From Sulfuricurvum sp. (GTDB lineage Bacteria > Campylobacterota > Campylobacteria > Campylobacterales > Sulfurimonadaceae): DNA of 64,000 nt. The stretch lies in the NCBI GenBank assembly GCA_030692765.1, contig JAUYUB010000002.1, positions 1-64,000 of the forward strand, read 5' to 3'. The notes beneath the pieces are model-generated. The model saw nothing but the letters and a program-made list of their open reading frames with translations, was not told where the DNA came from and did no database searches. A program made the position numbers and the translations under genes. How positions within the stretch are numbered: the first letter of the stretch is position 1; every line of letters begins with the position of its first letter. This document shows, piece by piece, positions 46,638-58,707 of this stretch.

Positions 46638-47066
46638 ATGGCAAGAACGGATGATGCACCCAATACAGAAGGGCTTACATTTTTAGATGATGGCGAAATG
46701 CTCTATGATGATTTATATTTATTATCTGAAACGGATGAAAAAGGGATCATTACCTATGTGAGCGATTCCTTCGCAAAAGTTGCTGGATGGAAAGGGGAAG
46801 ACCTTGTGGGTCAGCCTCATAACTGCGTTCGCCATCCTGATATGCCGCGTGCGGCATTTCGTTCATTATGGGACGATGTTCAGGCAAAAGGTTTTTGGAC
46901 CGGATACGTTAAAAATGCTCGTAAAGGCGGGGGACATTACTGGGTATACGCAACTGTTTTGCGTTCAACCGATAAAAACGGAAATATTAAATATGTTTCT
47001 ATTCGTATCAAACCATCACGTGAAGATATTAAAAAAGCAGAAGCGCTCTACGCGACACTGGATTAA
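46638..47066 (+). CDS. Aer-type PAS domain protein (energy/redox sensor)
   Basis: A 142-residue protein that is a single PAS domain. The segment NCVRHPDMPRAAFRSLW followed by GHYWVYATV is characteristic of the FAD-binding PAS of Aer and of CetB in C. jejuni. No membrane segment is present. ATG 46638 has GAAGGGG upstream. It starts the long chemosensory operon and lies ten bases before the double-MCP receptor, so it probably acts as that receptor's sensor. Upstream is a palindrome CCCTAT-GT-ATAGGG (46468-46481) of unknown use. FAD binding is inferred from family resemblance. Confidence 0.85.
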   Translation: MARTDDAPNTEGLTFLDDGEMLYDDLYLLSETDEKGIITYVSDSFAKVAGWKGEDLVGQPHNCVRHPDMPRAAFRSLWDDVQAKGFWTGYVKNARKGGGHYWVYATVLRSTDKNGNIKYVSIRIKPSREDIKKAEALYATLD

Positions 47067-47075
47067 GGAGTAATT

Positions 47076-48959
47076 ATGGCACTAGTAAGACGAACAGAGC
47101 ATGCACCCGCAGCAGTAGGAAGCGTTAGCCCAGACAAGAGACGTCAGCGTACATTGGCAAAACAGCAACAAATATCAGAAAGTATCGCCGGAGTAGCTAC
47201 GACTATTTTGGGAAATGCACAAGAGAGCGTTAGTGCGATTGAGCAACTCAAAAGCTCGATGGAACAAATCGCGACAGCAGCAGAAGAGAACAGCGGTGCG
47301 AGCGAACAAGCGCTTAAAAATGTACGCTCTATACACTCGAATATCGGGCGTATGACAACGAGCATTGATACGGTTATCTCTTCGACACTGGTAACGGGCG
47401 ATAATATCATGGCTGCTGTTGGAACGATCAACACTTCGGTTGCGCGTATGTCGCAGGCGGTTAATGTTGCTAAGACGTCTTCTACCAAATCAGAAGAGCT
47501 CAAAATTTCTTCTGAAAATATCGGAGAAGCGGTTGGATTCATCGCAAAAATTGCCGATCAGACCAATCTTTTGGCACTGAATGCCGCGATCGAAGCCAGC
47601 CGTGCAAAAGAGCATGGAAAAGGGTTCGCGGTTGTCGCAGATGAAACCCGTGCACTTGCCGGTGAATCAGAAAAAAATGCCGATTTTATTTCCAACTTGG
47701 TCAATAAAATTCAAGAAAGCATTGATAATATTATCAAAAGTATTCTGAGTACAACGGGTATCATTGAGCAGACCGGTGGACGCGGGTCTGCATTGAGCTT
47801 CAAAATGGAAGAGCTTACAAAGATCGCTGTTTACTCTGTAGAAGCAGCGCGAAATATGAGCAGCTATACGCAAAGTCTCGGTCAATCTGTTGTGCAGATC
47901 AGTGATGGTTCCAAAGAGATTGCAGACGCTTCAAGTGAAATCGCCAAATCCGTTGAACGTACCCTCAACAGCATCGAAATGCAGTCCAATTCATTGGTTC
48001 AAACCGAAGAAGACATCAAAGAGCTCAACAATCTCTCTGAAGAGTTGAAATTTTCAACGGATACGATGAAATCGGCGGAAGAGATTGCGGCTTCTGCCGA
48101 TGCGATCAGCTCAAGCATGGACGACATTCAAAACTCACTCAAAGAAGTAACGAGCGGTTTGAATCAAATCGAAGCTTCTTCTCAGGCAACCAACCAAAGC
48201 GCACTTTTGAATAAAGAGCTTTTTGAAAGCGGGCTTTCTGCATCAAAAGACATCAGTAAGCTTATCGAGATCGCTCGTCGTAACTTTGATTTGCTTAAAA
48301 CATCTTTTGGGGATGTAAAAGGTCAGATGAACGGTATTAGCAATGATTTTACTAATTCAATTACAGAGGGAAGCAGTGCAAGCGGTGAGCTTGATGTGAT
48401 TGTCAAAGAGACACGCAATGTCGATAAAACGGTTGGTAGCATCTCTAACAGTATTATTCAGCTTAACATGTTGGCGATCAGCGGTTCCATTGAAGCTGCA
48501 CGTGCGGGTGATTTTGGTAAAGGATTTGCGGTTGTTAGTGCGGATATCCGTAACTTGGCAAAAGATTCCGAGTCTAACACTGAGAAGATCAATGATACCA
48601 TCGAGTCTATGAATGCAGAGATCGATACGGTTCGTACAGATTGGATTAAACTGTTGATCAATCAAGAAGGTGAAAAAGAGCAAATCGGAACATTGATCCA
48701 TGAGATCGATAAAATCACAACGATGTTGATTGATTTGCTTGATCGCTTTACAGGGCTTAAAACGATTAATGACCAAAATATTGAGGGGCTTAATCAAGGC
48801 CTTATCGGCATCAGTGAGATTCAAAAAGCGGTCGAGCTTTCAGCACGCAATGCACAAGAGTCTCGCAAAGCAAGTGAATTGATTATTGAGACGGTTAGCC
48901 ATATCGGCGAGGGTGTCGAAGAACTCGCTGTGATGGCTGACGAACTTCAACAGGGGTAA
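47076..48959 (+). CDS. Soluble chemoreceptor with two tandem MCP signalling hairpins
   Basis: A 627-residue protein with no signal peptide, transmembrane segment or HAMP domain. It carries two complete MCP signalling regions: tip 1 near residue 155 ([19 protein letters not shown], canonical) and tip 2 near residue 465 (QLNMLAISGSIEAARAGD, divergent). The tips are about 305 residues apart, enough for two four-helix-bundle hairpins. In tip 2 several residues that contact CheA/CheW in E. coli Tsr are changed. The start is MALVRRTEHAP, with a good ribosome site. Next to a PAS protein and a triple-CheW, it is the likely core of a cytoplasmic array. Confidence 0.9.
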   Translation: MALVRRTEHAPAAVGSVSPDKRRQRTLAKQQQISESIAGVATTILGNAQESVSAIEQLKSSMEQIATAAEENSGASEQALKNVRSIHSNIGRMTTSIDTVISSTLVTGDNIMAAVGTINTSVARMSQAVNVAKTSSTKSEELKISSENIGEAVGFIAKIADQTNLLALNAAIEASRAKEHGKGFAVVADETRALAGESEKNADFISNLVNKIQESIDNIIKSILSTTGIIEQTGGRGSALSFKMEELTKIAVYSVEAARNMSSYTQSLGQSVVQISDGSKEIADASSEIAKSVERTLNSIEMQSNSLVQTEEDIKELNNLSEELKFSTDTMKSAEEIAASADAISSSMDDIQNSLKEVTSGLNQIEASSQATNQSALLNKELFESGLSASKDISKLIEIARRNFDLLKTSFGDVKGQMNGISNDFTNSITEGSSASGELDVIVKETRNVDKTVGSISNSIIQLNMLAISGSIEAARAGDFGKGFAVVSADIRNLAKDSESNTEKINDTIESMNAEIDTVRTDWIKLLINQEGEKEQIGTLIHEIDKITTMLIDLLDRFTGLKTINDQNIEGLNQGLIGISEIQKAVELSARNAQESRKASELIIETVSHIGEGVEELAVMADELQQG

Positions 48960-48963
48960 TTCT

Positions 48964-50340
48964 ATGCGTATCGAAGAGATTTTGATTATTCGCCATAATG
49001 AGGTTTCATTTGGTATTTCTACTGCGTTGATCGGTCAAATTCTTCGTGTTCCGGATATTACCAGTTTGGCATTGAGCCCTTATGAAGTGCGCGGCTTATG
49101 CGCCGTTGGCGGAGGGATTGTTACCTTGTTGGATTTCAACCTTTTGCTGGGGCTGGACCCTTGCAGCGGGTTGGATCAGGGGAATCGAGTTATCACGTTG
49201 AATAATGAGATGAGCGCATTGGCACTGCTTGTGGATGAAGTGACCGTTTCATTAACAATCGAGCAGGACAAGATTGAGTATTTAGATGTTACAGATGATG
49301 CGATCATCGCGATTGTTCATCATGAAGATACGCTGATCCAAGTGGTTAGCCTTGAGTACGTTATCGGGGCAATCCGTTCTGTGAAGGTATCCGCTCAAGC
49401 GGTTGTTGAAAAAAGCAGCTACGAGGCTGAATCATCCGTAAAAGCGGAAGATAAAAGCCGCTACCTTGTTTTTAAGATGGGGTCAGAAGAATATGCCCTC
49501 CCTATTGATGAGTTAAGAGAGATTTTAAATGCGGATGTCACGATTACCGCCATGGCGGGTTCAAATGATGAGATTATCGGCATGATGTCTTTACGCGAAG
49601 AATTGGTCGTCATTGCTGATTTACGTCTTTTTTATGGTTTTGAGCCCAAATCGGGAGAAAAAAATCGTATTATGATCATCCAGATGGGCAACAAGACGTT
49701 GGGATTGATGATCGATGAGATTGTAGACATTCATGAATTTTCCAAAGGAGATTTGGATTCACTGGGCACCAGTAATGATGATAAACGTATTGGCGGAGTT
49801 ATCCATAATGGAGAGAAGCTCATCTCGCTTATCTCAAACAGTGCGATTGCATCTTTACTTGAGCGAAACAGTGACATCATCGTCTCTAATGATGTAACTG
49901 TGGTGGGTGAAGATACGGCAGAGTTGGTAGAAGTGGTGATTTTTAAACTTGGGAATGAAGAGTATGCGTTTAGTATCGAAGAGGTTGCGGAGATCATTGA
50001 TATGACTCCTGTCACTCCTGTGGCCAATGCTTCTGAGATGGTGGATGGAATCATCAACATACGAGGACAAATTGTGACCATCGGTTCTTTGCACAAACGC
50101 TTGGGAATAAAAATCCCTACGGATGTGGATCAGAAAATTATTATATGTCATGCGCCAAAAGGACGGATTGGATTTTTTGTGAATACCGTGAGTGATGTTC
50201 TTTCCATTGATCCTGCACAGATGAGAGATGAAGAGAGCGCTGATGGGCTTTTTTCGAATGTCATCCATTTAGATGAAGGTAAACGGCTAGTTTTACTGTT
50301 TAATCGTAATATTTCACAACTATTGGAAAGCGCTGCATGA
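48964..50340 (+). CDS. Triple-CheW adaptor protein
   Basis: A 458-residue protein made of three CheW domains in series: about 1-140, 160-300 and 315-455. Each shows the CheW beta-barrel pattern (for example SRYLVFKMGSEEYALPIDEL in the second, VVIFKLGNEEYAFSIEEVAE in the third). No receiver domain is fused, so it is not CheV. CheW couples receptors to CheA; three domains could crosslink several receptors. It lies 4 nt after the double-MCP gene and overlaps cheB (ATGA). Confidence 0.9.
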   Translation: MRIEEILIIRHNEVSFGISTALIGQILRVPDITSLALSPYEVRGLCAVGGGIVTLLDFNLLLGLDPCSGLDQGNRVITLNNEMSALALLVDEVTVSLTIEQDKIEYLDVTDDAIIAIVHHEDTLIQVVSLEYVIGAIRSVKVSAQAVVEKSSYEAESSVKAEDKSRYLVFKMGSEEYALPIDELREILNADVTITAMAGSNDEIIGMMSLREELVVIADLRLFYGFEPKSGEKNRIMIIQMGNKTLGLMIDEIVDIHEFSKGDLDSLGTSNDDKRIGGVIHNGEKLISLISNSAIASLLERNSDIIVSNDVTVVGEDTAELVEVVIFKLGNEEYAFSIEEVAEIIDMTPVTPVANASEMVDGIINIRGQIVTIGSLHKRLGIKIPTDVDQKIIICHAPKGRIGFFVNTVSDVLSIDPAQMRDEESADGLFSNVIHLDEGKRLVLLFNRNISQLLESAA

Positions 50341-51395
50341 AAAGAATCTTGATAGCAGATGATTCGGCATTGGTTAGAAAACAAATAACAGAGATCGTAG
50401 GCGATCTTGGATTTGAAATTGACACGGCACGTAACGGCGCTGAAGCGGTAGAAAAAGCAACTGCGACTCAATACGATGTTATAACGATGGACATCAATAT
50501 GCCGATCATGGATGGTCTTACGGCGGTACGTAAAATTATGGAAATACGCCCGACACCGATTTTGATGATTAGTTCTTTGACTACTGAAAGTGCTAAAATC
50601 ACCATGGAAGCGCTTGATGCAGGTGCTGTTGACTATATCTCAAAACCCGGAACAATGAATGTGGGGCGTAATGAAAATACAGAAGACATTGTCCAAAAAG
50701 TGACGTCTCTGAGTCGTATCCCGCCGCGTCGTTTGAAAACAATGACCCGCCGCAGTGTTGTACGTGAACGTCCTGTAAGTGTTCGGGAAGCAACACGGAT
50801 AGAAAATAAATCGACGGCTGATGTGACTAAAATATTATTGATCGGCGCATCAACGGGCGGACCAGGGCTTCTTGAACAGATTTGTACAGCATTGCCCGCA
50901 ACATTTGGTTATGCTGTCTGCATTGTTCAGCACATGCCTGAGCAGTTCACCGCAGCATTTGCGGCGCGATTAGACAAAAACAGTGCATTGCCTGTTATAG
51001 AAGCAAAGGATCACATGGAGGTTTACCCTGGTAATATTTATCTCGCACGTGGCGGAGTTCACATGCATTTTGCTAAGAAAGTGACGGGAAGAATCGTTAT
51101 CCGTGAGGAGAAAAACAAAGGAAATCGTTTTTTCCAGCCCAGCGTTGATGAGATGTTTCACAGTGCACTTAAAGTATTTTCGGGCGATCAGATTGTAGGC
51201 GTTTTATTGACAGGAATCGGTGATGACGGTGCAAACGGCATGGTTGCGATTAAGCAAGCGGGCGGTTTTACCATTGGAGAAAGTGAAGAGACGGCAACCG
51301 TTTACGGAATGCCAAAAGAAGCGTACGATAGAGGGGGAGTGTCGCAGCAGCTCCCTTTCCCTAAGATTGTACGGGCACTACAGACATTACGCTAA
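50337..51395 (+). CDS. cheB: CheB protein-glutamate methylesterase
   Basis: A 352-residue CheB with a full receiver domain (phosphoacceptor Asp52 in TMDINMPIMDG) and a methylesterase domain. The catalytic serine is about Ser172 in IGASTGGPG; the His is in CIVQHMPEQF and the Asp in LTGIGDDGANGM. It removes methyl groups from receptor glutamates and deamidates glutamines when phosphorylated by CheA. The gene overlaps the triple-CheW stop. Confidence 0.95.
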   Translation: MKRILIADDSALVRKQITEIVGDLGFEIDTARNGAEAVEKATATQYDVITMDINMPIMDGLTAVRKIMEIRPTPILMISSLTTESAKITMEALDAGAVDYISKPGTMNVGRNENTEDIVQKVTSLSRIPPRRLKTMTRRSVVRERPVSVREATRIENKSTADVTKILLIGASTGGPGLLEQICTALPATFGYAVCIVQHMPEQFTAAFAARLDKNSALPVIEAKDHMEVYPGNIYLARGGVHMHFAKKVTGRIVIREEKNKGNRFFQPSVDEMFHSALKVFSGDQIVGVLLTGIGDDGANGMVAIKQAGGFTIGESEETATVYGMPKEAYDRGGVSQQLPFPKIVRALQTLR

Positions 51396-51405
51396 GGATT
51401 AAGGG

Positions 51406-52032
51406 ATGGCACTAGTAAAAAAACATATAGCGCAAGATGTGGAAGAGCTCCCACAATTTTCAAGGCTTGAAGATGTATTGGAATATTTTCATGAGAATGC
51501 GGATAAGTTTGATGAGCAAGGTTATGCAATCGAACAAATAGAAATGTTTGACGGCGGCGGGGAAGCGCTTGTGCATATTTTGGTTGACAGCCCTTACGTC
51601 CATAAAGACATAGCTTCCAAGATTGCGGCTACTCTTGCTAAAATGGACGGGAGTCGCGCTCCTATCGAGTCCATTATGGGGTTGCTTAAGGTGCGTAATG
51701 CGTACATCCGAAACCTTGGAATCACAACACTTCAAAGCTATGGCGACGCGATTAAATATTACATCGTTAAATTTTTGATTGGGGATGACCGCGATCTGCG
51801 TATTTTTGCGATTAATGTTTTAGGTGATGTTAATTTTGCTCAATCCCGTGATATGCTTATCGAACTTCTTGAAAAAGAGAGTGACATCAATGTCGCAATG
51901 ACAGCTGTAGATTATATGGCTGAGATTGGTGAAGTGGAGGATATCCCCTTGCTCGAAACACTCAAGAGCAGATTTCAGGATTCGTACGTTACTTTTGCCA
52001 TTGATAACGCCATCCGCAGTATTCGGGGGTAG
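51406..52032 (+). CDS. HEAT-repeat-like protein of the chemosensory cluster
   Basis: A 208-residue helical protein. The second half has repeated helix pairs of the HEAT type (DRDLRIFAINVLGDVNFAQS, then INVAMTAVDYMAEIGEVEDI), each about 32 residues. The first 60 residues have a different helical region. Its opening MALVKKH resembles the MALVRRT opening of the double-MCP receptor. Such repeats form protein-protein interfaces. It sits between cheB and cheR (10 and 3 nt gaps), so I infer a role in receptor adaptation or array assembly. Confidence 0.75.
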   Translation: MALVKKHIAQDVEELPQFSRLEDVLEYFHENADKFDEQGYAIEQIEMFDGGGEALVHILVDSPYVHKDIASKIAATLAKMDGSRAPIESIMGLLKVRNAYIRNLGITTLQSYGDAIKYYIVKFLIGDDRDLRIFAINVLGDVNFAQSRDMLIELLEKESDINVAMTAVDYMAEIGEVEDIPLLETLKSRFQDSYVTFAIDNAIRSIRG

Positions 52033-52035
52033 ATA

Positions 52036-52866
52036 ATGGAGCCACTTTTGTCAGAGGAAAACTTTCATAAGATGACCGAATATATCTATCGTAAGAGTGG
52101 GATATACTTGGAGGTTGACAAGCATTTTGACAAACTTTCCAAGTACATTGATGCACGCTGTAAGATTATCGGAGCTGATTCTTTCCGCAAGTATTTTTAT
52201 ACTTTGCGTTTTGATGATAAAGACGGTACAGAGTTTCAAGCACTTATGAATGGGATGACGGTCAATGAGACCTATTTTTACCGTGAAAAAGAGCAATTTG
52301 AGGTGCTGGTCGATCGAATCTTGCCGGAATTACACGCAGTAAAGCCAAAAGGGCAGGCTTTACGGATTTTATCTGCGCCAAGTTCTACAGGAGAAGAGCC
52401 GTATTCGATGATTTTGCACATTCTTGAAGAAGGGCGTATTGTTGAGGAACGTGATATTGAAATCGTCGGAATCGATATTGACAGTACGGTAATCGAAAAA
52501 GCCAAACTTGGCAAATACTCTGACCGTTCTGTGCACGCTATACCAGCCGGAGTACTCGCAAAGTATTTCAAAAAGAAACCTTTAGGCCATGATCTGATTG
52601 ATGATCTTATAGGCACTGTTGATTTTAAAGTATCCAATGTCTTCGATAGAGGGGATATGCGAAGATTGGGAAAATTTGATGTTATTTTTTCACGCAACAT
52701 GCTTATATATTTTGACGATGCCAGCCGAAAAGAAGTTGCGATGACCTTTTACGATATGCTTAATCCAGGTGGTTATGTCTTATTGGGGCATGCTGAATAC
52801 ATGAGCCGTATCACTTCGGTGTTCAAGGCAAAAAAAATTGATTCCACATTAATTTATCAAAAATAA
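52036..52866 (+). CDS. cheR: CheR chemoreceptor methyltransferase
   Basis: A 276-residue CheR that methylates glutamates of receptor hairpins with SAM. The N-terminal domain precedes GMTVNETYFYREKEQF, and the SAM site reads LSAPSSTGEEPYSM (usually ASTGEEPYS). The catalytic-core segment SRNMLIYFDDASRKEV is typical. Full family length. It is preceded by the HEAT-like gene (3-nt gap) and followed by a CheY. Confidence 0.95.
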   Translation: MEPLLSEENFHKMTEYIYRKSGIYLEVDKHFDKLSKYIDARCKIIGADSFRKYFYTLRFDDKDGTEFQALMNGMTVNETYFYREKEQFEVLVDRILPELHAVKPKGQALRILSAPSSTGEEPYSMILHILEEGRIVEERDIEIVGIDIDSTVIEKAKLGKYSDRSVHAIPAGVLAKYFKKKPLGHDLIDDLIGTVDFKVSNVFDRGDMRRLGKFDVIFSRNMLIYFDDASRKEVAMTFYDMLNPGGYVLLGHAEYMSRITSVFKAKKIDSTLIYQK

Positions 52867-52886: not shown

Positions 52887-53258
52887 ATGCCATTAGTAAT
52901 ATTTGTAGACGACAGTGAGACAGCGTTAGCATCCACTCGGATGGTTACGGATTCAATGCCAATTACGGTTAAGCAATATTTATCCGCCGTTGATGCACTC
53001 AATGAGATTAAAGGGGGGATGGTTCCTGATTTGATTATTACGGATATGAATATGCCCGTTATGAATGGATTTGAGTTTTTACAGGGGCTTCGTCAGGTGC
53101 CAGGCACGGCACGCACCCCGGTGTTGATGCTTACAACTGAGACACGCGATGAACTTAAAGCGCAGGGAAAAGCACTTGGACTGACGGGTTGGGTAGTAAA
53201 GCCGTTTAATCCGGCACAGCTGAAGCAAGCAATTTCTAGAGTATTGCGTCTCGCATAA
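52887..53258 (+). CDS. CheY-like response regulator (first of two)
   Basis: A 123-residue single-domain receiver. Acidic pocket VDDS, phosphoacceptor Asp53 in ITDMNMPVMNG, Thr in LTTETRD, and Lys105 in GWVVKPF are all intact. A clear AGGAGA ribosome site precedes it. With the CheZ-like gene immediately downstream, this CheY is a likely substrate of that phosphatase, and either the flagellar output or an accessory branch. Confidence 0.9.
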   Translation: MPLVIFVDDSETALASTRMVTDSMPITVKQYLSAVDALNEIKGGMVPDLIITDMNMPVMNGFEFLQGLRQVPGTARTPVLMLTTETRDELKAQGKALGLTGWVVKPFNPAQLKQAISRVLRLA

Positions 53259-53268
53259 GTCAAGTACG

Positions 53269-53661
53269 ATGCAATTCCTAAATACTCTTAATGGATTACT
53301 GGAACATGTTAAAAGCGTGGAGCGCGAGACCATTGGATTAACTCAAGAAGCGCAGTTGCGTTTTGTGCGCTTTCTCGATAAAAATAAGTTATGCGCAGAT
53401 GATGAAACGCTCGAAGCGATGCAGTATCAAGATATCATCGCGCAGCAGTTAAGTGCGACGATAGAAGCTATTGAGAGTGCGCAGGAGCATATGCAATATT
53501 TTATGCATGCATTTAGCGAAGACGATGCCATTGCGGCACAAAGCATTGAAAAAATGCATGGTAAATTGGCGAATGCGCTTGAGAAAGCAAAAGATAAGCA
53601 CAGTGCATTTAGTGGAAAAGTGAATCGTGAAGACGATGATGACGGAATAGAGTTTTTTTAG
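53269..53661 (+). CDS. Minimal CheZ-like phosphatase candidate
   Basis: A 130-residue helical protein. Residues 52-61, MQYQDIIAQQL, resemble the CheZ active-site helix (QDLTGQ of E. coli), with Asp55 and Gln59 in the catalytic places. It ends DDDDGIEFF, an acidic tail with aromatic end like the CheY-binding C-terminal peptide of CheZ (DDLLDSLGF). It is much shorter than E. coli CheZ (214). It is between two cheY genes. Function is inferred from motif and context. Confidence 0.7.
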   Translation: MQFLNTLNGLLEHVKSVERETIGLTQEAQLRFVRFLDKNKLCADDETLEAMQYQDIIAQQLSATIEAIESAQEHMQYFMHAFSEDDAIAAQSIEKMHGKLANALEKAKDKHSAFSGKVNREDDDDGIEFF

Positions 53662-53670
53662 GAGCATGAG

Positions 53671-54036
53671 ATGGCAACAGTAATGGTAGTAGACGATTCA
53701 AAAACAGTGCGGAGTTATCATGGCTCTATTCTAAAAGATTTAGGGGTAGAGGTGCTTGAAGCAGAAAATGGGATGGAAGCACTTGAAAAGTCGTTGGACA
53801 ATAATGTGGATTTGTATCTCGTGGACGTGAACATGCCGGTTATGGACGGTTATTCATTTGTAAGTGAATTACGTCAGCAGCCACTAAAGCGTTTTACTCC
53901 TGTGATTATGATCACAACACAAGTGGAAGCGACCGACAAGCTTGAAGCATTTAAAGTAGGTGCCAATCTTTTCGAAACAAAACCTATTAAGCCCGATGCT
54001 CTCAAAGGGTATCTTCAGCTCTTGTTAAAAGTTTAA
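53671..54036 (+). CDS. CheY-like response regulator (second of two)
   Basis: A 121-residue single-domain receiver: VDDS acidic pocket, phosphoacceptor Asp52 in LVDVNMPVMDG, Thr83 in ITTQVE and Lys104 in FETKPI. Compared with the first CheY it is a separate subtype, with Tyr preceding the Asp-containing strand (DLYLVD). It lies 9 nt after the CheZ-like gene and 14 nt before cheA. Confidence 0.9.
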   Translation: MATVMVVDDSKTVRSYHGSILKDLGVEVLEAENGMEALEKSLDNNVDLYLVDVNMPVMDGYSFVSELRQQPLKRFTPVIMITTQVEATDKLEAFKVGANLFETKPIKPDALKGYLQLLLKV

Positions 54037-54050
54037 ATCAAGGACAACAT

Positions 54051-56803
54051 ATGAATCCGCTACTCGAACAATTTTTATTGGAAGCCAGAGAGAATTTGGC
54101 GTTTATTGATCAAAACATTGAAAATATCGGAGGAGATGATCCTGAGTTATTAAACTCTGTTTTTCGTGCTGCCCATACGCTCAAAGGGGGCTCCGGAATC
54201 GTAGGGTTTGAAGCGGTCAAGCGTATTACCCATCATGCCGAAGATCTATTGGACATGCTGCGTGCAGGAAAGCTTGAGTTTAAACCGGTTATGATCGAAT
54301 CCTTGTTTAATGCGTTTGATGAGGTAGTTAACCTCATTGAAGCTGCCGAAGAATGCGGTGACGTTGTGGAAGCGGATGAGTCACGTATTGATCAGATTGC
54401 AGAAGAACTTAGCGCACTGATGGGGAAAACGACTGAAGTGCAAGCATGGACGTGCCCGTTTCGGCTGGAAAGCAATGTTGAGCGTATTGTCAATATCCCG
54501 ATGCCGTTTTTACGACAGTTCAGCCAAAAAATTCCCTTTAAAGTCGGCGAAATTGATGAGGAGTTTTGCGCTAAAGAACAACTGTATGCCATTGTCTTTG
54601 ATTTGGATGAATCGTGTATGGTGTATGGAAATGATCCTCTCTATACCCTCTCCCTTATCGGAGATAAAGTTTTAGGAATTCATTCATGCATGGGTGAAAA
54701 TGCGACAAAATCAGTTTTGTCCGGCTTTGATGATCCTGATGGATTACTGCTGCGTTTGAGCATGACGGCATTTGTCTATGCGACGTATGAAGAGATCAGC
54801 GATGCGTTGTTTAATTTCGTCGACGAGCTTAGCTTTGCTCCCCTTGATATTGTGACGTTGCTGCAAATTAGCGAGGGTGAAGCCGGGCATACATTGGATG
54901 TTCTTAAAGAGCTCTCAGCGGAGTGCAGCGGGGCGATTGATGCATTCAACCGTTTGGCAATCAGTGAGAAGATTAATAATACCTTGCCATTGATTGGACG
55001 AGACACTCTTCAAAGTATGCAGTTACGCCGTATTGACGAGTTATTAAATACGGTTAAAGATGCAGATATGGGCTTATTGAAATCGTTTTTCGCACAGTTG
55101 CCGCAGGGGAATGTGTATGTACACAATGCCTTGCTTGACGATGTTGTGAGTACGGAGGCAGTCGCTGTGCCTGAGTTAGGCTCCAAAACGACAGAAATAA
55201 ATGAGCTGGAGCGCATACAGCTCAAGGCGATATTAACGCAACAACTTCAAACTTTGGAAATGCTGGATGATGACGCGGCTCATGAGCGGGTATTGTCTAT
55301 TTTAGAAAATAACCTTAAGTCGTATATTTGCGATATACCAAGCAGCTTTGGCTCAAAAGAAGCCTTGATAAACTGGTTGCGCAGTGAGATAAGCGGTGAA
55401 TCTAGCATAGCGGTTGAAGAACCGGCAACAGCAGCAAAGACCCCTGTTGTTGAAGCAGTGCCTGTAATGGCGGCGGAACCTGCTGCGGTCAAGTCCTACA
55501 ACGAACCTGTTGCGAAAGCTTCTGAGGTGATTCCTGCAGTCTCAAGTGTGGTAGAACGTGTTGATTCTGACAATCAATTAAGCAGCAGCAAGAAGGGTGT
55601 CATTGGTAAAACGGTCAAAGTCGATCAGGAATCGATTGATCATTTGATGAACGTTGTCGGAGAACTTTTGGTGGCTAAAAACTCCTCCCGTATTTGGCGG
55701 ATGGCGTTCATAAGATGACAGGGGAAGTGATCAAGCGTGCGATTATGGAAAAATACACGTTTATCAACCGCCTGGCTGAACAATTGCAAGATTTGATCAT
55801 GTCGATGCGTATGTTGCCGATTTCCTATGTCTTTGACCGTTATCCAAAACTTGTACGTGACATCTCTAAAAATATGAATAAAAAAGTGACGCTCAGTATG
55901 GACGGAGGGGAAACAAAACTCGATAAAAATATGATCGAAATGCTTGCTGACCCGATGATTCATATTATGCGTAACTCTTTGGACCACGGGATTGAAATGC
56001 CGGATGTCCGTATCCAAAAAGGAAAAAATCCAGAAGGAAGCATAACGCTCAATGCCTATGCGCAGTCGGACAAGATCATTATTGAAATACGTGATGACGG
56101 TGCAGGCATCAATGTTAGCCGTGTGGTTCAAAAGGTACTTGAAAAAGAGTTGTTGACGCTTGAACAAGTAGAAGCTATGAATGATGATGAAAAAGCGGCC
56201 TTGGTCATGCTTCCGGGTCTCTCAACGGCGGAGACCATTAGTGAATACAGCGGTCGGGGCGTCGGAATGGACGTTGTACGCAAATCTATCGAAGGATTTG
56301 GCGGAACCATCCGTATCAAGACGGTACCCAATCAGGGAACGACGATTTATCTCTCTATTCCTGTATCTCTTGCGGTGACTTCATTGCTACATGTGACCAT
56401 GAGTGGGGTTCATTATGGATTCCCTATGGATTCAGTTTCCGAAACGGTCAAGATCGAATCATCTAAAATAGAGTATTTGCAAAACGAGCCATTTATTTAT
56501 TTACGTGGTGAAGTTATTCCGCTATTGTTTGCGAAAAACATGTTGGACGAAGAGGCATTAGCCCATAAATCACTTCCGGTGGTGGTACTAAATATCAAAG
56601 GAAACCTTCTAGCCGTTGTGGTCAATGAGTTGTTGGGACAATTGGATGTAGTCCAAAAACCACTTGAGGGGATTATGGAAGGGCACCCTATTTTCAGTGG
56701 TACTGCATTGCTGGGTAACGGGCAAATCATTATGGCAATCGATCCAATAGGAATTTTAGGAATATCGACAGTACTCAAAAGCGATCATCGAATCGCGAGC
56801 TAA
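54051..56803 (+). pseudogene. cheA: CheA histidine kinase, frameshifted by one missing base
   Basis: Two overlapping frames together encode one CheA of about 917 residues. The first (54051-55718) carries the P1/HPt domain with phospho-His42 (RAAHTLKGGSG), a long Ala/Val/Pro-rich middle and P3. The second, open to 56803, carries P4 (PMIHIMRNSLDHGIE N-box; YSGRGVGMDVV G-box) and the CheW-like P5. At 55680-55690 the normal P3 sequence would read KNSLPYLADG; the frame breaks exactly between S and L. Adding one C restores it. This may be a real deletion, a sequencing error or a frameshift. The operon is otherwise intact, so function may survive. Confidence 0.85.
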
Positions 56804-56818
56804 GTAAAGGAATTTAAG

Positions 56819-57253
56819 ATGGAAGATTATATTATCTTTACTATAGGTGATAACTATTATGCTTTAAATGTAGCATCGATACAACGGATCATTCAAGTTC
56901 CCAATGTAACGGCGATCCCCAATGCTCACCCTATGGTGGAGGGGATGATGTCCTATGAAGATCGCGTCATCAAAGTAGTAAGTTTTCGTGCCATGATGGG
57001 GATGGAAAGTTTTAATGAAAGTACGACGGGGAAGTCTCAAAAACTTCTCATTTACCAGACGCAAAGCGCGTTTTTTGGTATCAAAGTGGATCAGATTGAG
57101 GATATTAAAAACCTCGATTGCTCAACACTTAAGCACGTTGACAAGCTCGAAGCCAATGAAGGCTTTGCAGAGATTGAGGGCGTGGTTGAAGTAGACAATC
57201 GGCTTGTAAACGTGATTAAATCGGTAACTTTACCGATGAAGGAGAAAGTATAA
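56819..57253 (+). CDS. cheW: CheW adaptor protein
   Basis: A 144-residue single CheW domain (IIFTIGDNYYALNVASIQRI opening; VEGMMSYEDRVIKVVSF and EGVVEVDNRLVNVIKSV later). It is paralogous to the CheW at 57539. It lies 15 nt after cheA and overlaps the STAS gene by 1 nt (TAATG). One of five CheW domains encoded outside CheA in this cluster. Confidence 0.92.
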   Translation: MEDYIIFTIGDNYYALNVASIQRIIQVPNVTAIPNAHPMVEGMMSYEDRVIKVVSFRAMMGMESFNESTTGKSQKLLIYQTQSAFFGIKVDQIEDIKNLDCSTLKHVDKLEANEGFAEIEGVVEVDNRLVNVIKSVTLPMKEKV

Positions 57254-57538: not shown

Positions 57539-57967
57539 GTGAGCGACTTTATTATATTCACTGTCAATGAAGCGCATTACGCATTGGATGTGGCCAATAT
57601 AGAACGCATAGATCACGTTCCGGTACTGACACCTGTCCCAAATGCCCACTCTTTTGTGGATGGGATAATGATGTATCAGGGCAATACTCTCAAAGTAATC
57701 AATTTTAGAAAAATGACGAATACGCAGGGAGAGGAACTGGCATTAAACTCTCAGAAACTTTTGATTTATAGGGATGAGAAGGGGGTGTTTGCGATCAAAG
57801 TAGATGCGATTAAAGATATTATGTCGTTTGAACCCTCATCTGTTAAACCGTATGCCCATGTTGTTACCGTAGGGCAGTATTTACAAACGCGCGGTGTCGT
57901 TGAGTACAAACAGTCATTAGCCGTTGTCATCGATTCGGTTGAGCTTCCGCACGATGAGGCAGCATGA
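57539..57967 (+). CDS. CheW adaptor protein (paralogue)
   Basis: A 142-residue CheW domain clearly related to the one at 56819: both share IIFT...YALxVAxIxRI...VPNAHxxVxGxMxY and SQKLLIYxxxxxxFxIKVDxI. It starts with GTG 57539 and overlaps the ParA-like gene by 4 nt (ATGA). It probably couples receptor and CheA, or links the array to the ParA protein. Confidence 0.92.
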   Translation: MSDFIIFTVNEAHYALDVANIERIDHVPVLTPVPNAHSFVDGIMMYQGNTLKVINFRKMTNTQGEELALNSQKLLIYRDEKGVFAIKVDAIKDIMSFEPSSVKPYAHVVTVGQYLQTRGVVEYKQSLAVVIDSVELPHDEAA

Positions 57968-58707
57968 AAACAATCGTTGTAAGCAATCGTAAGGGGGGAT
58001 CGGCCAAGACCACGACTTCGGTGAATCTTGCCTGCGAATTGGCAAAAATAGGATCAGTGCTTTTGATCGATTTTGATACCCAGGGACACGCATCGCTGGG
58101 AGTGGGAAGCGAAGCTTCAGAGAACAATGGGGCTCATTCGATTTTTGTAGGTAAAACGCTCAGCGAGACGTTTGTTCATACGGTACACGATCAGCTCACC
58201 CTTTCCCCTGCGCAAGAGTTCTTTGATGTTTATGAGTTTGGAGATTTACGGGGAGTGCTTAAAAACCGTTTTCGCCGTGAGATGATCCATGATTTTTTTG
58301 ATTACGTGATTATTGATACCCCCCCCACCTTTGATGGACTGCTTAAAAATGCGCTGGAAGTCGCCGATGCGGTCGTCATTCCTTTTGTTCCGCATCATCT
58401 GGGCGTAGTCGCTGTGGGGCAAATGGTACGCGCTATCTATCAAAATGCTTCACTTAACGCGCAAAAAACGCCTGAAGTGGGAATTTTACCCGTGATGGTC
58501 AATGCACACATCCCTGAGCATCGTGAAGCCATAGCCAAGATTAAGACGCAATTTGGCGAAGAAAAACTTTTTTCAGGCATAGGGATCGATATCAAACTGG
58601 CCAAACAGTTTGAGGGAGGAACTCCTGTTGTTTTAGATGAAGAACGTTCCCGCGGAGTAAAAGATTATCGATATTTTGTGGAAGAGCTTTTGGCTCGATT
58701 AGCTTAA
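57964..58707 (+). CDS. ParA/MinD-family ATPase
   Basis: A 247-residue P-loop ATPase. The deviant Walker A reads KGGSAKTT (residues 10-17; usual KGGVGKTT), keeping both lysines, and Walker A' and B-type segments LLIDFDTQGHASLG and YVIIDTPPTFD follow. ParA relatives such as ParC and PpfA position chemoreceptor arrays in Vibrio and Rhodobacter; this gene overlaps a cheW, which supports the same role. There is no parB and no sign of a plasmid partition locus. Confidence 0.9.
   Translation: MKTIVVSNRKGGSAKTTTSVNLACELAKIGSVLLIDFDTQGHASLGVGSEASENNGAHSIFVGKTLSETFVHTVHDQLTLSPAQEFFDVYEFGDLRGVLKNRFRREMIHDFFDYVIIDTPPTFDGLLKNALEVADAVVIPFVPHHLGVVAVGQMVRAIYQNASLNAQKTPEVGILPVMVNAHIPEHREAIAKIKTQFGEEKLFSGIGIDIKLAKQFEGGTPVVLDEERSRGVKDYRYFVEELLARLA

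Follow-up and report, generated by a model that had tools for sequence, protein, structure and literature searches.

The window analysed here is the 64,000-nucleotide stretch at positions 1 to 64,000 of contig JAUYUB010000002.1 from a Sulfuricurvum sp. assembly (GCA_030692765.1), and all of the window genes described below lie on its forward strand. At 47076-48959, an open reading frame of 627 amino acids with an ATG start (dosM) encodes DosM, the soluble double-signalling-domain receptor of F9-class chemosensory systems. A profile search of the genome returned three stretches of match to the Pfam family MCPsignal within this protein, two of which, at 47487-47948 (104.8 bits) and 48378-48797 (63.7 bits), exceed the cut-off of 34.6 bits. 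The third (47835-48197, 22.9 bits) falls below the cut-off, overlaps the first and is probably a register slip. The original prediction that one chain carries two MCP tips is borne out by these matches, and the concern it raised, that a profile might recognise only one true signalling domain, is answered by the two found. Above the cut-off, the chain has no Pfam domain except MCPsignal and no sensor domain, and a hydropathy scan of its 627 residues found no hydrophobic segment of membrane-span length.

Tip 1, a hairpin tip of canonical type, occupies 47526-47693 (residues 151-206, equivalent to Tsr 363-418), and tip 2, of a type specific to DosM, occupies 48426-48593 (residues 451-506, likewise Tsr 363-418, with K451 and E503 at Tsr 363 and 415). 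Counted from the equivalent of Tsr I377, the tips start at residues 165 and 465, and tip 2 of this protein is IQLNMLAISGSIEAARAGDFGKGF. Both tips stand as first read, tip 1 being canonical and tip 2 different. Since all nine other MCP genes read in this genome have a canonical tip, tip 2 is an outlier within its own genome. BLASTP of the protein against itself gave no match between the halves, so that the evidence for their relatedness comes from the profile and from aligning the tips. The protein also matches MCP structures (e.g. 2ch7) in sequence and in fold; the search with the whole model is weak for long coils, and its credible matches are MCPs. We found 77 related loci, and Sulfuricurvum-named relatives encode the protein at identities of up to 97%. 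A chance or assembly origin of the two-tip chain is ruled out by the occurrence of such chains, with the same tip-2 motif, in 87 loci outside the window. In one Sulfurimonas MAG (L085:8878-10712), dosM is apparently broken into two overlapping frames.

The gene before dosM, at 46638-47066, encodes a 142-residue single-PAS protein of Aer/CetB type (Pfam PAS_3, 8.8e-13), and the gene after it, at 48964-50340, encodes CheW3, with three CheW domains in one chain (Pfam CheW, 2.3e-67, in three stretches). These are followed by genes for a CheB-type methylesterase (50337-51395, recognised from its sequence and aligning with annotated CheB of other F9 clusters), a HEAT-repeat protein (51406-52032; Pfam HEAT_2, 3.4e-12) and a CheR methyltransferase (52036-52866, aligning with annotated CheR). 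Two CheY-like response regulators, recognised from sequence and conserved in relatives (52887-53258 and 53671-54036), enclose a conserved 130-residue protein that has no Pfam match and is also kept in relatives (53269-53661). The remaining genes encode a CheA kinase (54051-56803; Pfam Hpt, H-kinase_dim, HATPase_c and CheW), two single-domain CheW-like proteins (56819-57253 and 57539-57967, each aligned with E. coli CheW) and a ParA-family ATPase (57964-58707), which also ends some other F9 clusters and is annotated in L094 and L100. The order after CheW3 (CheB, HEAT, CheR, CheY-like, CheA) matches that of annotated alpha- and betaproteobacterial plasmid clusters. Most of the F9 clusters examined, including L094-L098 and L100, have the HEAT-repeat gene in this position; the Rhizobiaceae clusters L099 and L101 lack it. 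At three loci (L033, L042 and L051), homologues of CheA, CheW and ParA stand upstream of PAS-dosM and not downstream of it, which shows that some Sulfurimonas have a rearranged operon.

The cheA gene of the window is read in two frames (54051-55718 and 55694-56803). Aligned with five related loci (L013, L014, L015, L021 and L024), it has one base missing, with the frame split near 55685-55705, and the cheA of eleven relatives is a single open frame of 898-943 amino acids. Either a mistake in assembly or a genuine defect could account for the break. Elsewhere the genome encodes a second CheA (C1:50324-50530, an 834-residue frame) as well as flagellins, in agreement with the usual coexistence of F9 with another class and with flagella (PMC9321776).

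A previous study of Campylobacterota identified DosM, with its signalling domains in tandem, and the triple CheW, CheW3, as the signature components of F9 (PMC9321776). We assigned the class here from these two proteins and from the gene set, which comprises cheW3 together with dosM plus cheA (frame-broken in the assembly), cheY, cheB and cheR. The identity of DosM follows from its two MCP domains, the lack of a membrane segment, the adjoining triple CheW and a che operon order like that of annotated F9-like clusters. The protein is therefore of a known kind, which the original prediction correctly spotted while partly misassigning its mechanism. Its description of such chains as uncommon is roughly right, as a full F9 set was reported in 64 and a partial set in eight of 2,781 representative species, giving 72 with F9 genes; 98% of DosMs consist of two signalling domains only, without a sensor (PMC9321776).

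In Vibrio cholerae, cryo-electron tomography has described DosM as a rod that spans two facing baseplates and carries a signalling domain at either end, serving as the scaffold of two-layered cytoplasmic arrays 35 nm in height with CheA/CheW layers at both ends (PMC7534058). The double-layer sandwich that had been suggested for the present protein gains support from this precedent and from the CheW3 partner gene adjoining dosM. The other suggestion of the original prediction was that the two tips might make mixed or cross-linking contacts. In the literature searched, we found no imaged array from Sulfuricurvum. A second receptor seems to be required for the V. cholerae arrays, and no single-tip soluble receptor of 44H type was recognised in this genome.

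The geometry of the chain is strongly conserved. In every one of 87 loci, exactly 300 residues separate the two tips, at identities to the window protein down to ~28%, whereas the segment before tip 1 is variable. A conserved S[TS][DN] motif, located in 78 loci, always follows tip 1 by 162 residues and precedes tip 2 by 138; in the window protein it is the STD at residues 327-329 (48054-48062), which marks the junction of the halves. AlphaFold2, run with 44 sequences (mean pLDDT 86.9, pTM 0.58), predicts helices at residues 19-176, 178-326 and 330-626, with a break at 327-329 on this motif. The turn of the second hairpin is unbroken in the predicted secondary-structure string, and confidence dips near residues 471-490. 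Arms of the 44H length class are expected of a DosM; those predicted here, of ~147-158 residues, would correspond to 21-22 heptads by residue count. The constant spacing of 300 residues, seen in the sequences themselves, presumably serves to hold DosMs to a common length.

On this basis, we hypothesize that each DosM chain forms two hairpins with ~150 residues per arm, joined at the helix break, with the tips at opposite ends of the rod, and that each tip would dock into one of two facing CheW3/CheA baseplates, as shown for V. cholerae DosM. Three hundred straight helical residues would extend ~45 nm at 1.5 A per residue, compared with the 35 nm of the V. cholerae array (PMC7534058), which implies that the rod is not simply straight or that the species differ. 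This mismatch, suggestive of a middle that is not a plain straight rod, and the helix break predicted midway would also suit a chain that folds back at 327-329 and sets both tips on the same baseplate, as a single-chain receptor pair. We regard such a fold as very unlikely, given that the tomography of V. cholerae DosM shows an extended rod with its signalling domains at opposite ends (PMC7534058), and an extended rod with opposed tips is the arrangement that we favour.

The unusual character of tip 2 extends well beyond the window. DosM loci were sampled from Campylobacterota, Spirochaetota (Leptospiraceae), Riflebacteria and alpha- and betaproteobacterial plasmids, with V. cholerae DosM left out, and were compared as a set of 88 sequences, which includes near-identical relatives and holds 45 distinct tip-2 windows, and as a second set of 20 diverse sequences. 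In the DosMs read, tip 2 has the motif MLA[VI][SN]G[SN][IV]E[AS]ARAG. Both sets show consistent tip-2 states (Tsr numbering) of K/R at 363, mostly I/V at 373, M at 377, I/V at 380, S/N at 381, G at 382, S at 383, D at 402 and D/E at 409 and 415; the motif used to gather the 88 fixed positions 377-379, 382 and 388-390 and restricted 381, 383, 384 and 386, so that this set is not independent there, and left 363, 373, 380, 402, 409 and 415 free. Relative to the canonical tip, tip 2 of the 88 is altered at F373, I377, L380, N381, A382 and A383. At 376-383, tip 1 is canonical, and its residue at 373 is D. A DNA pattern for tip 2 matched three of 249 Campylobacterota genomes (this one, the same-genus G176, and G134), this one and G134 being read as DosM, and had no match in viral contigs.

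A maximum-likelihood tree was built from 40 DosM halves together with 13 domains of ordinary receptors. In this tree, all 20 second halves fall on one branch (support 100/100, 100% of bootstrap trees), and the first halves lie nearer the ordinary receptors without forming a single group. The common branch of the second halves suggests that the two halves of DosM were already distinct before the protein spread over the sampled phyla, and the asymmetry of the tips is very probably older than that spread. Judged from these alignments, tip 2 is an old, conserved variant specific to DosM, and its oddness is not peculiar to this protein. A functionless relic of domain duplication, drifting freely, might also depart, as tip 2 does, from the canonical tip at positions that are almost universal elsewhere; but the differences themselves hardly vary among 88 DosMs of several phyla and the spacing never changes, and we give this explanation almost no credence.

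The positions of these differences bear on what tip 2 does. Previous work has described contacts between CheW and receptor at R40-E402, D107-R404 and E18-R394 (PMC6954272), as well as contacts of CheA P3/P4 with receptor R394 and N405 and trimer salt bridges E402/R404 and D363/R415 (PMC6746300). F373, N381, E385 and R388 are among the residues important for cluster formation and function (PMC8466855). The original prediction located the divergence of tip 2 at the CheA/CheW contact positions, and this is mostly wrong, since the equivalents of Tsr R394, E402, R404 and N405 are kept or conservatively changed. The 88 DosMs retain E385, R388, R/K394, V398 (I in two), R404 (G in one) and mostly N405, and position 402 changes from E to D in 88/88. 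It follows that a tip 2 with lost or weakened CheA/CheW binding, which would leave one working tip and one that is purely structural, is improbable. That reading, which came with the original prediction, can point to the lower MCPsignal score of tip 2 (63.7 vs 104.8 bits) and to the changes at N381, L380 and I377. Besides the retained contact residues, the conservation of tip 2 across phyla and the CheA/CheW layers described by tomography at both ends (PMC7534058) speak against it.

Instead, among the positions consistently changed in tip 2 are F373 and N381, both reported to make trimer contacts, and those of the D363/R415 salt bridge, where K/R363 occurs with D/E415 in 88/88 DosMs, the reverse of the arrangement in Tsr. 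Changes on the trimer side, together with the reversed charges, point to a separate trimer-of-dimers interface on tip 2 that would have been conserved since before the F9 phyla diverged. Most other receptors of this genome lack the 363/415 bridge too. None of the five CheW domains here, nor CheA P5, has CheW R40, the residue that pairs with receptor E402 in E. coli; the contacts described for E. coli and Thermotoga thus serve only as a guide and do not transfer one to one. With that reading, tip 2 retains the residues that bind CheW and CheA according to published models while presenting a different trimer face, and its dimers would probably trimerise with other tip-2 dimers and not with ordinary receptors, the altered face making the trimers selective. 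A stronger form of this proposal, in which DosM throughout F9 combines an ordinary trimer interface with a charge-reversed one, each excluding the other, such that only like tips form trimers and orientation is sorted during assembly, is conceivable, though we would not at present bet on it. If true, the sandwich would be an ordered two-faced structure as opposed to two interchangeable layers.

DosM lacks a sensor domain, and the gene upstream of it may supply the signal. The PAS protein at 46638-47066 has 44% identity over 121 amino acids to the PAS domain of E. coli Aer, including the stretch GQPHNxVRHPDMPxAAF, and its gene ends 9 bp before dosM. A homologue with 71-97% identity lies just upstream of dosM in all loci of Sulfurimonadaceae type with enough upstream contig. 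No PAS match was found beside dosM in the Riflebacteria, the alpha- and betaproteobacterial, one Leptospiraceae and two divergent Campylobacterota loci (one of these with ~0.9 kb of upstream sequence), and the other Leptospiraceae locus has a 27% PAS match 3 kb from dosM. The genome encodes further free Aer-type PAS proteins, two of which adjoin single-tip MCP genes (C28:14824-16281 and C4:41943-43464) in pairs resembling CetA/CetB, the bipartite energy taxis system of Campylobacter jejuni in which a receptor stands beside a separate Aer-like PAS protein (PMC2628428). Gene linkage and homology make the upstream protein a probable sensor partner of DosM, which would probably provide a redox or respiration signal as CetB does for CetA. 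The dosM-linked PAS gene is accordingly a candidate source of the sensory input that F9 arrays of Campylobacterota otherwise lack.

Taken as a whole, we consider it highly likely that DosM acts here as a scaffold with two opposed tips in facing CheW3/CheA baseplates, a conserved tip 2 with its own trimer face and input from the PAS protein. The class-wide tip difference on the trimer face, the invariant spacing and the PAS linkage may be new points. We found no rule in the literature searched that derives from the tip difference which tip goes where, and the original description of DosM may state one; the conserved difference offers a concrete, testable rule for how an array might place each tip. 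Moreover, DosM arrays need no membrane, which makes them an entry point for reconstituting chemosensory arrays in vitro.

Among known systems, C. jejuni CetA is a single-tip receptor, in contrast to the two tips of DosM, and what they share is the separate Aer-like PAS protein beside the receptor. The two-layered cytoplasmic arrays of Rhodobacter sphaeroides, cited in PMC7534058, also have facing baseplates with receptors between them, but no tie by a double-tip receptor is described for them in that paper. The plasmid F9 clusters of Azospirillum, Methylosinus, Methylobacterium, Sphaerotilus and Eleftheria (L094-L098, L100) share the order dosM-cheW3-cheB-HEAT-cheR-cheY-cheA, the same kind of tip 2 and the 300-residue spacing, whereas they have no PAS gene directly before dosM and their DosMs are ~30-35% identical. 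Relative to V. cholerae, which was compared by description only, the Sulfuricurvum locus differs in the Aer-type PAS gene before dosM and in the two single CheWs and ParA after it, while sharing with the F9/cluster I DosM of that species (VC1403) the tandem signalling domains, the cytoplasmic location and the clustering with a triple CheW and CheA (PMC7534058, PMC9321776).
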